Origin: Rhodospirillales bacterium
Lineage (GTDB): Bacteria > Pseudomonadota > Alphaproteobacteria > BOG-932 > Roseiterribacteraceae
Direction of reading: 5' to 3'
Assembly: GCA_028291345.1 (NCBI GenBank)
Contig: JAQGIF010000126.1
Span: 1-64,000, forward strand
DNA length: 64,000 bases
Shown: piece after piece, positions 48,445 to 56,143 of the stretch
How the letters are laid out: each line of letters starts with the position of its first letter
Position numbering within the stretch: the first letter of the stretch is position 1
Made by a program: the position numbers and the translations under genes
Notes under the pieces: model-generated
The model's database searches: none
Seen by the model: only the letters and a program-made list of their open reading frames with translations
What the model was told of the DNA's origin: nothing

Positions 48445-50583
48445 ATGACCAGCTTCCGCACCGCCGTGATCGGCGCCGGCTTTATTTCGACGACGCATAT
48501 CGAGGCGTTGAAAGCGGTGGTGCCGGAAACCGAGATCGTGGCGATCGTCGACCGCAATCTGGCTCTGGCGCAAAGGCGCGCGGCGCAGTGGGGCATTCCC
48601 AACGCTTACGGGAATATAGAGGAGCTGATCGCGGCGAAGGTCGCCGATGTGGCGCATGTGCTAGCGCCGCCCGACCTGCATGCCCCCATCGCCAAGCGGC
48701 TGATCGAAGCCGGGCTGCATGTGTTGCTCGAAAAGCCGATGGCGACCTCGGTCGCGGATTGCGAGGCGCTGACGGCGCTTGCTGCCGACAACGGCGTTGT
48801 TCTCGGCATCAATCAGAATTTTGTCTTCCACCCAACCTATCGCGCCGCCCGCCGGATCTTGCTGGACGAGCGCCGGCTGGGGCCGATCCGTTCACTCCAT
48901 GTCACGTTCAACGTACCGCTGCGCCAGCTTGGCGCGCGCCAGTTCGGCCATTGGATGCTGCAGGAACCGGTCAACATCCTGCTCGAACAGGCGGTCCATC
49001 CCCTGTCGCAGATTGCTGATCTGCTTGGCGCCCCCACGGTGGTCGGCGGCCAGGCCGGCAAGCCGCTGCAGATTGCACCAGGGCGGATGGTCTATGACCG
49101 CTGGAGCGCCGATCTGATGTGCGGTGAAACGCCGACGCAGCTCTATCTGGCGTTCGGCCAAAGTTTCCATGCCTGGCGGTTCACCGCGATTTGCGACGAC
49201 GGTCTGCTTATCTGCGATCTGTCGGCGGGGCGGGTGATGGTGCAGGGCCGTGCGCAATGGCCGGAATTTCTCGATAATCTGGTCACCGGAGCGGGCGTTG
49301 CCGGGCAGATCGCCGGTCAATCGATCGGCGGGGCGGTGGGCTATCTGGCCGGCCTGCTGAAAATCCGGCCCCGGTCCGACGGCTTCTTCGTCAGTATGCG
49401 CGACAGCATCGCCGCCTTCTATAAAGCCATCCCCACCGGACATGCGCCGCTGGATGGGGCGTTCGGCGCGTCTCTGGTCGGTGTCTGCGAAACGCTGGCC
49501 GCCAAAGTTCCGGGGCTGCCGGTCCCGGCAGAGCCCGTCAAGAAAACACGCAAACCAGCCGCCAAGCCGGTTTCTACCCCTGAGCTGGTCGTGTTCGGCG
49601 GCACCGGCTTCATTGGATCTCATCTGATATCGCGGCTGGTCGCAGTGGGCAGGCCGGTTCGCGTCGTGTCGCGCGCGGCCGGGGCGCAATCGCCGCCGTT
49701 CGATTCGGCGATGGTCGAGATCATGCGTGGCAACGTAGCCAAGCGCGAAGACGTCGAACGCGCCCTTGCTGGCGCCAAGCAGGTTGTGAACCTGGCCCAT
49801 GGCGGCGGAGGCATGAGCTGGGACGAGATCAAGCGCACGATGGTCGACACTGCCGTGCTGGTCGCCGATTGCGCGGCCGCGGCCGGCGTTGCCAGGCTGG
49901 TGCATGTCGGATCGATCGCCGGCCTTTATCTCGGCGATCCCGAGCAGGTCGTTACCGGCGCCACACCGCCGGACGTCGAGGCTGAGAAGCGTAACCTCTA
50001 TGCGCGCGGCAAGGTGGAGGCTGACAAGGCGCTGCTCGCCGTTGCCGCCGAAAAGCTGCTCGACCTCGTTATCCTGCGGCCGGGTTTGGTTGTGGGCGAG
50101 GGAACGGCGGCGCTGCATGGCGGTCTCGGCTTCTTCAATAACGAACAGCATGTGATCGGCTGGAACGGAGGAACCAATCCGCTGCCCTTCGTGCTGGCTG
50201 AAGACGTTGGCGATGCGATCATAAAGGCCCTGGATACCGCTGAAATACCGGGCAAAACCTATAATCTGGTCGGCGACGTGCGTCCGACGGCGCGCGAATT
50301 CGTCGGGATGCTGATCAACGCGACGGGGCGGCCTATCGCCTACCACCCGCAATCTGTCGATTGGCTTTATGCAGCCGAACTGTTCAAGTGGGGAATAAAG
50401 CGCGCGACCGGCCAAACGCCGGATCTGCCGTCGCGCCGGGATTTGCTGTCGCGCGGCCTGCGGGCCCAGTTCGATTGCAGCGACGCAAAGCGCGATCTCG
50501 ATTGGCATCCGGTCGCCGATCGCGGGACTTTCATCGCCCGCGCTATCGAGATTCACAAAATCCCGTTCAAGCGGGTGGCATGA
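48445..50583 (+). CDS. Fusion protein: Gfo/Idh/MocA family oxidoreductase + NAD-dependent epimerase/dehydratase
   Basis: N-terminal TAVIGAGFISTTHIEALKAV...HVLLEKPMATSVADCEALTALA; linker EPVKKTRKPAAKPVSTPE; second Rossmann VVFGGTGFIGSHLISRL...VNLAHGG. Confidence 0.9.
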   Translation: MTSFRTAVIGAGFISTTHIEALKAVVPETEIVAIVDRNLALAQRRAAQWGIPNAYGNIEELIAAKVADVAHVLAPPDLHAPIAKRLIEAGLHVLLEKPMATSVADCEALTALAADNGVVLGINQNFVFHPTYRAARRILLDERRLGPIRSLHVTFNVPLRQLGARQFGHWMLQEPVNILLEQAVHPLSQIADLLGAPTVVGGQAGKPLQIAPGRMVYDRWSADLMCGETPTQLYLAFGQSFHAWRFTAICDDGLLICDLSAGRVMVQGRAQWPEFLDNLVTGAGVAGQIAGQSIGGAVGYLAGLLKIRPRSDGFFVSMRDSIAAFYKAIPTGHAPLDGAFGASLVGVCETLAAKVPGLPVPAEPVKKTRKPAAKPVSTPELVVFGGTGFIGSHLISRLVAVGRPVRVVSRAAGAQSPPFDSAMVEIMRGNVAKREDVERALAGAKQVVNLAHGGGGMSWDEIKRTMVDTAVLVADCAAAAGVARLVHVGSIAGLYLGDPEQVVTGATPPDVEAEKRNLYARGKVEADKALLAVAAEKLLDLVILRPGLVVGEGTAALHGGLGFFNNEQHVIGWNGGTNPLPFVLAEDVGDAIIKALDTAEIPGKTYNLVGDVRPTAREFVGMLINATGRPIAYHPQSVDWLYAAELFKWGIKRATGQTPDLPSRRDLLSRGLRAQFDCSDAKRDLDWHPVADRGTFIARAIEIHKIPFKRVA

Positions 50584-51979: not shown

Positions 51980-52351
51980 ATGCCGACGATCAATCAGTTG
52001 ATCCGCAAGCCGCGCCAGCCGCTGCGGGTGCGCAACAAGGTTCCCGCGCTTGAGGCATGTCCTCAGAAGCGCGGCGTATGCACGCGTGTCTATACGACGA
52101 CGCCGAAAAAGCCGAACTCGGCGCTCCGCAAGGTCGCCCGCGTGCGGCTGACCAACGGGTTCGAAGTCACCAGCTATATTCCCGGTGAAGGCCACAACCT
52201 TCAGGAGCACTCCGTGGTGATGATCCGCGGCGGTCGCGTGAAGGATCTTCCCGGTGTCCGTTATCACATCATCCGCGGATCGCTCGATACGCAGGGCGTC
52301 AAGGACCGTAAACAATCGCGCTCGAAGTACGGCGCGAAGCGGCCGAAATAA
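51980..52351 (+). CDS. rpsL: 30S ribosomal protein S12
   Basis: [80 protein letters not shown]. Confidence 0.99.
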
Positions 52352-52369: not shown

Positions 52370-52840
52370 ATGTCGCGTCGTCGCCAAGCCGAGAAGCGTG
52401 AAATTCTGCCGGACGCCAAGTTCGCGGACATCACTCTGGCCAAATTCATGAACGTCATGATGGTCGATGGGAAAAAGTCCGTCGCCGAAGGCGCGGTCTA
52501 TGATGCCCTCGACCGGATCGCCCAGCGGACCCGTGCGGAGCCGCTGCGCATTTTCCATGATGCGCTCAACAACGTTCGCCCTTATGTCGAAGTGCGGTCG
52601 CGCCGCGTCGGTGGCGCCACCTACCAGGTGCCCGTCGAAGTGCGCCCCGAGCGCAGCCAGGCTTTGGCCATCCGCTGGCTGATCACCGCATCGCGCGCCC
52701 GGTCCGAGCGCACGATGATGGAGCGTCTGTCGAATGAGCTGATGGACGCGGCGCAGCAGCGCGGCACCGCCGTTAAGAAGCGCGAAGACACCCATCGTAT
52801 GGCGGAGGCGAACAAGGCCTTCTCCCACTACCGCTGGTAA
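52370..52840 (+). CDS. rpsG: 30S ribosomal protein S7
   Basis: [40 protein letters not shown]; canonical length. Confidence 0.99.
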
Positions 52841-52858: not shown

Positions 52859-54901
52859 ATGTCCCGCAACCATCCTCTCGAGCGTTACCGCAATATCGGC
52901 ATCATGGCCCACATTGATGCCGGTAAGACGACGACAACCGAGCGAATCCTTTATTATACTGGGAAGTCCTCCCGGATCGGCGAGGTGCATGAAGGCACCG
53001 CGACGATGGATTGGATGGAGCAGGAGCAGGAACGCGGCATCACGATCACATCTGCCGCGACGACCTGTTACTGGAACGACCACCGCATCAACATCATCGA
53101 CACGCCTGGCCATGTCGATTTCACCATCGAAGTTGAGCGTTCATTGCGCGTCCTCGATGGTGCGATCACCGTGTTCGACGCGGTTGCCGGCGTCGAGCCG
53201 CAATCCGAAACCGTGTGGCGCCAGGCCGACAAATACGGCGTGTCGCGGATCTGCTTCATCAACAAAATGGATCGGGTCGGCGCGAATTTCTACCGGACAG
53301 TGGACATGATCGCCGAGCGCCTCGGGGCCACGCCCCTGGTGCTGCAGCTGCCGATCGGTTCCGAGTCCGGTTTCGCCGGCGTCATCGATTTGCTTAAGAA
53401 CAAAGCCATCGTCTGGAAAGACGAGACGCTGGGCGCCGAATTCTACGAGACCGATATCCCGGCCAATCTGGTCCAACACGCAGCTGAATATCGCGCGGCG
53501 CTGATCGAATTGGCTGTCGACCAGGACGATGCGGCTCTCGAGTCCTATGTCGGCGGCGTCGAGCCCTCGATCGAGGCGCTGAAGGCTTGTATTCGTCGCG
53601 GCACGATCGCCGGGACGTTCGTGCCGGTGACCTGCGGCGCCGCTTTCAAGAATAAGGGCATTCAGCCGCTGCTAGATGCGGTCGTTGATTATCTGCCGTC
53701 GCCGCTCGATGCGAGCGAACTGGCGGTTCAGCCTGACGATGACGCGGCGTTCGCCGGTCTGGCGTTCAAGGTGATGAACGACCCGGTGGTCGGCACGTTG
53801 ACTTTCGTGCGGATTTACGCGGGCAAGCTCGAAGCCGGCACGACTGTGCTGAATTCGGTGCGGCGTCGGTCCGAGACGGTCGACCGGATGCTTGAGATGC
53901 ATGCCAATGCGCGCGAAGAGATCGCGGTGGCCTATGCCGGCGACATCGTTGCGCTGCCCGGCCTTACTGTGACCAGCACCGGCGATACGCTGTGCGATCC
54001 GGTCGCGCCGGTCGTGCTTCAGAGCATCGCCTTCCCGGAACCGGTGATCGAGGTCGCGGTCGAAGCCAAGACGGCCGCGGACCAGGAAAAGATGAGCGCG
54101 GCCTTGGCGCGTCTCGCGCAGGAAGATCCGACCTTCAAGGTGGCCCTCGATCCCGAAAGCGGCCAGACCGTCATCCGCGGTATGGGCGAATTGCACCTTG
54201 AGATCATCGTCGATCGCATGAAGCGCGAGTTCAAGGTGAACGCCAATGTCGGCACGCCGCAGGTCGCCTATCGCGAGACGATCACTCGCCGCGCCGAGAT
54301 CGATTACACTCACGACAAGCTGCTTGGCGGCAGCGAGCATTTCGCCCGCATAAAGCTGGATTTCGCGCCCGGCGATGTCGGTTCGGGTTTCGCCTTCGAA
54401 TCGAAGATCGCGAAGGACGCGATACCGGTCGAATTCGTGTCGAGCGTGCGCAACGGATTGAATTCGGCTAAGGAATCGGGCGTTCTCGCTGGTTTTCCGG
54501 TTGTCGATTTCAGTGTCGCCCTGGTTGATGGGGCCTGTCGCGATGCGGCGTCTTCGGCGTTGGATTTCGAGGTCGCGGCCCGCGTCGCTTTCAAGGAAGG
54601 GATGCGCAAGGCCGCTCCTGTCCTGCTAGAGCCGGTTATGCGGGTCGAGATTTTGACACCTGAAGATTACATGGGCGATATTATTGGCGATCTAAGCTCG
54701 CGTCGCGGACAGATATCGGGTATGGATCAGCGTGGTCCCGCTCGTTCGATCGATGCGATGGCGCCGCTCGCCAACATGTTCGGCTATGTCAACACGCTTC
54801 GCTCCATGAGCAAGGGGCGTGCACAATATAGTATGCAATTCGATCACTACGACCCGGTGCCTCAGGCGATTGCCGACGAGGTTCGGGCAAAGCTCGCTTG
54901 A
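52859..54901 (+). CDS. fusA: Elongation factor G, divergent domain IV
   Basis: GTPase motifs [33 protein letters not shown]; str-operon position; domain IV loops altered (see findings). Confidence 0.96.
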
Positions 54902-54955: not shown

Positions 54956-56143
54956 ATGGCCAAATCTAAGTTTGAGCGGAATAAGCCGCACTGCAATATC
55001 GGCACCATCGGTCACGTCGATCATGGCAAGACTTCGCTGACAGCGGCGATCACCAAGGTCCTGGCCAAGTCGGGCGGCGCTACCTACACCGCGTACGATC
55101 AGATCGACAAGGCGCCGGAAGAAAAGGCGCGTGGCATCACGATCGCGACGGCGCACGTCGAGTATGAGACGAAGAATCGCCATTATGCTCACGTCGATTG
55201 CCCCGGTCACGCTGACTACGTGAAGAACATGATCACCGGCGCCGCGCAGATGGACGGCGCGATTCTGGTTGTGTCTGCCGCCGACGGCCCGATGCCCCAG
55301 ACCCGCGAGCACATCCTGCTCGCCCGTCAGGTCGGCGTGCCGGCGATCGTCGTTTTCATGAACAAGATGGACATGGCCGATCCGGAACTGGCCGAGCTGG
55401 TCGAGATGGAAATCCGCGAGCTTCTGTCGAAGTATGATTTCCCCGGCGACGACATTCCGATCGTGAAGGGCTCGGCCCTGGTCGCGCTCGAGGATGGTGA
55501 CCCGATCCTCGGCGAAAACGCGATCCTGGAGCTGATGGAAGCTGTCGATATCAGCATCCCGCAGCCGGAGCGCCCGATCGACCGTCCGTTCCTGATGCCG
55601 ATCGAAGACGTGTTCTCGATCTCCGGCCGAGGCACCGTCGTCACGGGCCGCGTTGAGCGCGGGATCGTCAAGGTTGGCGAGGAAATCGAGATCGTCGGTC
55701 TGAAGAACACCGTCAAGACGGTGGTCACCGGCGTCGAAATGTTCCGCAAACTGCTCGATCAGGGCCAGGCGGGCGACAATGTCGGCTGCCTGCTGCGCGG
55801 CACCAAGCGTGAAGATGTCGAGCGCGGCCAGGTTCTGGCCAAGCCGGGTTCGATCACTCCGCACACCAAGTTCACGGCGGAAGCCTATATTCTGACGAAG
55901 GAAGAGGGTGGCCGTCACACGCCGTTCTTCACCAACTATCGTCCGCAGTTCTACTTCCGCACGACCGACGTCACCGGAATGGTCGAGCTGCCGGAAGGCA
56001 CCGAGATGGTCATGCCGGGCGACAACGTGTCGATCGTCGTGAAGCTGATTGCGCCGATCGCGATGGACGAAGGCCTGCGCTTCGCGATTCGTGAAGGCGG
56101 CCGGACCGTCGGTTCGGGCGTCGTCGCCAAAGTTCTCGAATAG
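54956..56143 (+). CDS. tuf: Elongation factor Tu
   Basis: [24 protein letters not shown]; canonical length, 395 aa. Confidence 0.99.

Follow-up and report, generated by a model that had tools for sequence, protein, structure and literature searches.

Repeated erosion of the translocation tip in the str-operon EF-G of Alphaproteobacteria that possess a second EF-G

The str-operon EF-G encoded in the window, i.e., the whole stretch of 64,000 nucleotides of Rhodospirillales bacterium DNA analyzed here, is a full-length protein in which the domain IV tip used for translocation is altered, and the same genome encodes a second, non-str EF-G with a canonical tip. The tip has been lost repeatedly, in several lineages whose genomes likewise contain such a second EF-G. 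The explanation that probably accounts for these observations is that the second EF-G has taken over translocation and that the str copy persists for a ribosome-related job that does not depend on the tip, most likely RRF-dependent recycling. The hand-over of translocation to the second EF-G is well supported; recycling, deduced from sequence comparison and published biochemistry, would be the best candidate for the residual role of the str copy and is a weaker proposition than the hand-over itself.

The fusA gene of the window (52859..54901, + strand) is an open frame of 680 amino acids set in a str operon that also comprises rpsL (51980..52351, +), rpsG as the 5′ neighbour (52370..52840, +) and tuf as the 3′ neighbour (54956..56143, +). 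Its product scores 996.6 bits against TIGR00484, the NCBIfam EF-G equivalog (cut-off 659.4), and holds all EF-G domains I to V in Pfam, EFG_IV included; the equivalog score and the five domains place the protein within EFG I, as do its position between rpsG and tuf and its RGITI G2 motif. The G1, G3 and G4 GTPase motifs are unbroken, as the sequence-only reading had held, and the predicted fold (mean pLDDT 82) fits solved EF-Gs. The domain I-II linker (53705..53752, +), already suspected of being short, lacks about 12 residues relative to its relatives in alignments. Elsewhere in the window, a 712-aa frame (48445-50583) appears by eye to be a fusion of oxidoreductase-like and epimerase-like parts.

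During translocation, domain IV reaches into the decoding centre with its tip, and loss of this tip should cripple the process. Three elements of the tip are altered in the window EF-G. Loop 1 (consensus HKKQ[ST]GG[ST]GQF) spans residues 485-495 (54311..54343, +) and loop 2 spans residues 557-570 (54527..54568, +); in the latter the conserved His is replaced by Arg561 (codon CGC at 54539-54541), which corresponds to E. coli His584 when Met is counted and hence to H583. The sequence-only reading had described both loops and placed this Arg exactly. A third element, additional to the two loops recognized there, covers residues 519-532 (54413..54454, +) and carries the changes G519K, G520D, P528S and K532N. 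Altogether, 7 of the 13 core tip residues are changed, the protein carries H561R, and the conserved tip of a translocation-competent EF-G (HKKQxGGxGQ; H583) is absent; both glycines of loop 1 are retained, the residues around the glycine pair having changed instead. At 257 positions with 97% identity or more among 129 alphaproteobacterial EF-Gs, the protein departs 23 times, and the departures are far denser in domain IV (11/33) than elsewhere (12/224; Fisher p = 1.4e-5).

The str EF-G of an independent genome of the same genus, 90% identical to the window protein, reads HEKHLGGSDYF / DGTYRDTASS and carries the same Arg. Sequencing error, earlier thought unlikely, is thus ruled out by the shared Arg and the similar loops. 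Misassembly, contamination or sequencing error, taken together, can be given a negligible probability: the draft assembly is indeed fragmented (401 contigs, 3.9% contamination), but the changes are present in the independent genome, eroded copies are also found in assemblies comprising one to ten contigs and the orthologues of the second EF-G track the family. A lineage-specific change, as had been proposed, describes the situation only in part, for tip loss recurs in several lineages with a second EF-G. Nor are the altered loops standard for the housekeeping EF-G of the clade, since those of G004, a member of the same family, follow the consensus; and for insensitivity to an antibiotic as the driver, a further suggestion, no evidence was found.

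The same reading had envisaged a duplicate with the canonical copy elsewhere, and such a gene exists: a second full-length EF-G, 56% identical to that of the window, is encoded at G000:C113:39462-41576 (G000 being the window genome) and has the canonical loops HKKQTGGSGQY / DGKYHDVDSNAL. Its orthologues are 96% identical in the same genus and 85% identical in another genus of the window's family; it scores 857 bits against Rickettsia EF-G versus 546 against mtEFG1, and is thus not as close to the latter as would mark an spdEFG1. The window genome has one RRF gene, and its contig G000:C124 encodes an EF-G-like protein (30% identical) that may be an EFG II / EF-G-like paralogue. Effective codon number is lower in the second copy in 13 of 13 genomes, even where the str tip is canonical (sign test p = 2.4e-4, the genomes not being independent of one another), and in the window genome the CAI reaches 0.683 for the str EF-G, 0.786 for the second EF-G and 0.789 for tuf. 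Shine-Dalgarno strength showed no difference among eroded, canonical, single and second copies.

Across the 385 genomes surveyed within the class, the second EF-G type (at least 75% identity) occurred in families f1 (that of the window), f51 and f60, together with a 66% identical relative in G030; most of the 79 f51 genomes hold both types, and f51 is probably Azospirillaceae, to judge solely from the 88% identity at the DNA level between Azospirillum thermophilum fusA and an f51 second copy. With tip erosion defined as at least two departures in the 13 core tip residues, 50 of the 69 str copies that come from alphaproteobacterial genomes possessing both types are eroded, as against a single one of 142 comparison rows, which has an ambiguous X in loop 1; over half of these rows are named GTDB contigs from genomes unchecked for a second copy, and the contrast leans on the surveyed genomes and on the scarcity of the second type. 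The second-type copies examined (16/16) are all canonical with zero tip departures, and the single-type f60 members that were looked over by eye are canonical too, save for an occasional HRKQ. The tip is still canonical in 19 two-copy str copies, among them that of G004, which is sister to the eroded G003 within the window's family and is counted as two-copy because a fragment of a second EF-G lies at a contig end. Continued service of the str copy as the principal translocase, its altered tip being compensated by changes in tRNA or 16S rRNA, would agree with the retained str-operon position and, as modelled, the full-length EF-G fold; it is nevertheless very improbable, as the same genome has a canonical EF-G with more codon bias, tips are canonical wherever surveyed genomes showed no second EF-G, and the tip is never lost in the second copies examined.

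Departures concentrate in domain IV in eight of nine eroded copies tested, the exception being the g260 copy of G348. P528 is altered in 13 of the 15 tip-eroded groups, substitutions at K406, P528, Y483 and K486 recur between different groups, and the second Gly of loop 1 is replaced by Asp, as in EF-G2mt, in G003, g260, two Azospirillum-type groups and G453. When domain IV is left out of the tree, which comes from a quick search and contains some long branches, parsimony requires at least eight changes between the eroded and canonical states and gives them no direction; they would be losses, as an exact regain of the consensus is implausible.

The str copies can be arranged in five grades, an ordering of present-day states with no time course demonstrated. 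In the first, a canonical str EF-G coexists with the second EF-G; in the second, exemplified by the window protein, the tip is eroded and the GTPase motifs are intact. The third combines the eroded tip with a Lys-to-Arg replacement in the P-loop, found in all four g260 copies inspected (G348, G399, G407, G416), and with DTPGH changed to DTPSH in three of them; in these copies (L245, L247, L244 and L243, respectively) switch I is heavily altered and the protein is otherwise full-length, and the P-loop and switch I changes suggest that normal GTPase activity is lost there. The fourth grade is a domain I-II stub of about 395-399 amino acids between rpsG and tuf in the f60 genomes G278, G355 and G830, where the full-length EF-G is of the second type and located elsewhere; the stubs occupy the fusA position of the str operon at L283 3810-5000 (+), L284 4145-5332 (-) and L285 902-2101 (-), have no switch II, share the C-terminal motif PA[TS]AG[RH]A[KG]H and have a P-loop changed from AHIDAGKTT to ARLDAGRTT or ASQDAGRTT. 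In the fifth grade, represented by G030 (L301, G030:C70), str fusA is absent, rpsG being followed directly by the tuf start, and the sole EF-G found lies outside the str operon. Five further candidates for loss of the str copy (G425, G429, G444, G459 and G831) were rejected: with rpsG absent too, their assemblies do not contain the operon, and they are not counted as losses.

Comparison of the window fusA with its same-genus orthologue (G000 vs G001, simple Nei-Gojobori method) yields a dN/dS of 0.079 overall at a dS of 0.73, and 0.054, 0.047, 0.106 and 0.020 for domains I, III, IV and V, respectively. Domains I, III and V of the str copy are thus under strong purifying selection and erosion is mostly confined to domain IV. 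These values bear on the reading of the str copy as a gene in slow decay, redundant or kept for the integrity of the operon, whose most function-specific residues are lost first while the second EF-G both translocates and recycles. Such decay is unlikely, if less so than the other alternatives weighed here. It would account for the graded series from canonical through tip-eroded copies, the g260 P-loop and switch II changes and the f60 stub to the absence in G030, and it agrees with the window CAI lying close to that of one ordinary gene neighbouring fusA (0.661); however, dN/dS is 0.079 overall and as low as 0.02 in domain V over a dS of 0.73, the eroded copies are free of frame damage, and the GTPase motifs are intact in the inspected eroded copies outside g260. 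Even the f60 stub has a dN/dS (0.18, G278 vs G355) similar to that of the main EF-G of those genomes (0.185).

For a hand-over of translocation, we infer the following direction of events. The second, non-str EF-G (G000:C113), with its canonical tips and strong codon bias, would have taken on tRNA-mRNA translocation and freed the ancestral str EF-G from having to reach into the decoding centre with domain IV, whereupon all three tip elements could change and translocase function would be lost. The G domain and the cores of domains III and V, which touch the sarcin-ricin loop, the stalk and RRF, remain under strong purifying selection, as the str EF-G would retain GTPase activity and with it a GTP-driven task on the ribosome without need of the tip. 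The candidate task is subunit splitting with RRF, i.e., recycling, the splitting of hibernating ribosomes included. In some lineages this residual task would lapse as well, leaving a mutated P-loop, a protein cut down to domains I-II or no gene at all.

Published biochemistry is consistent with a recycling role. The S. aureus EF-G mutant H572K (equivalent to E. coli H583K) keeps its GTPase and performs RRF-dependent 100S splitting at wild-type level (PMC7196661), and H583K in E. coli lowers translocation, as cited in the same source; bacterial ribosome disassembly is hardly affected by mutations of the loop 1 tip (PMC8203779). The window genome displays the pattern of a recycling-specialised factor, with intact GTPase motifs, an altered tip, and a canonical-tip EF-G and RRF also present, and a specialised EF-G, one of the earlier suggestions, appears likely on the comparisons made here. 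Against recycling, the P-loop Arg of g260 and the f60 stub make a GTP-dependent role of this kind unlikely in those lineages; the second EF-G must then manage both jobs there, and a str copy devoted to recycling is less needed elsewhere. The analogy with EF-G2mt would also be imperfect, as the window EF-G does not have the EF-G2mt change and its domain IV has no specific likeness to that protein.

A specialised factor with a role beyond classical recycling, whether as a translocase that is slow or specific to stress or in dealing with ribosomes that hibernate or stall, is decidedly unlikely. The Bacteroides paralogue EF-G2 is reported to be used under stress (PMC6989115), a precedent among bacteria, and the recurrent substitutions at K406, P528, Y483 and K486 could mean a new shared function; but no regulatory signal was found, the place in the str operon beside rpsG and tuf is retained, and the version in which 100S ribosomes are split overlaps with the recycling hypothesis.

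The second EF-G has a 62% identical relative in G818, a genome of another proteobacterial class. For spdEFG1, a three-residue KDG insertion in switch I is a distinguishing trait; at switch I, the second copies of f1 have a KD-containing insertion and the G818 protein has one with KDG, and there is none in the second copies of f60. In G818 (L264 / L304), the EF-G with this insertion accompanies a canonical str EF-G. The Azospirillum-type second EF-G lies near rpsM-rpsK-rpoA-rplQ (L298 = NZ_CP029358.1, L047, L251, L252, L263), and in A. thermophilum this block is on a record named as a plasmid. A mechanical comparison of open reading frames, with many spurious frames, revealed no second-copy neighbourhood common across families outside the Azospirillum-type genomes, and the second copy may stem from transfer or from an old duplication. 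A broader proposition, which is tentative, has the str translocase of Alphaproteobacteria displaced again and again by a second EF-G that either spread horizontally or was duplicated in ancient times. The displaced protein would become recycling-only and then either be lost or be maintained, as in f60, as a domain I-II protein that is GTPase-dead and has acquired a new role in regulation or assembly.

EF-G is regarded as a single protein that does two jobs, and the str-operon fusA was taken as constantly constrained in a computational survey (PMC3150367); here it is the str-operon copy that changes, repeatedly. Within a limited body of open-licence literature, no description was found of recurrent erosion, truncation or deletion of str fusA in favour of a non-str EF-G. 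The intermediate stages occur in living, partly culturable genera and form a natural series that sets the residues of translocation against those of the remaining function. The str-operon fusA is not always the translocase, which calls for caution in annotation and with drugs that target EF-G.

A functional division between EF-Gs is already known from mitochondria, Borrelia and P. aeruginosa. Mitochondrial EF-G2 (GFM2) and Borrelia EF-G2 (spdEFG2) are recycling-only, have altered loop 1 glycines and are partnered by a canonical-tip translocase (PMC8203779, PMC3150367). However, spdEFG2 proteins form ancient separate subfamilies, whereas the eroded protein described here is an ordinary alphaproteobacterial str EFG I with several origins: the window EF-G scores 976 bits against Rickettsia EF-G versus 527 against mtEFG2, outside spdEFG2/mtEFG2, and its domain IV, taken by itself, gives no match to mtEFG2 at E 1e-5. 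Whole-protein scores against mtEFG2 and mtEFG1 are 527 vs 524 bits for the window and 495 vs 587 for the canonical G004, a shift to which the short linker may contribute; convergence on mtEFG2 was considered and dropped, as neither protein matches mtEFG2 through its domain IV by itself. EFG II / EF-G-like proteins exist beside a normal EF-G and diverge in domains I-III while conserving domain IV (PMC3150367); the window protein, with its divergence in domain IV, shows the opposite pattern. The gcEFG2 group, a second EF-G of gamma-, some alphaproteobacteria and cyanobacteria, has no assigned function (PMC4342817); the second EF-G described here possibly belongs to it, given the 62% identical relative in another proteobacterial class. 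In P. aeruginosa, as here, two EFG I-type proteins coexist, one str and one non-str, and the str-operon EF-G1A, reportedly almost inactive in poly(Phe) synthesis, is assigned to recycling and the non-str EF-G1B to translocation (PMC3832671). The P. aeruginosa pair is 84% identical with no reported tip erosion, whereas the two proteins described here are about 56% identical and the tip of the str copy is rebuilt.
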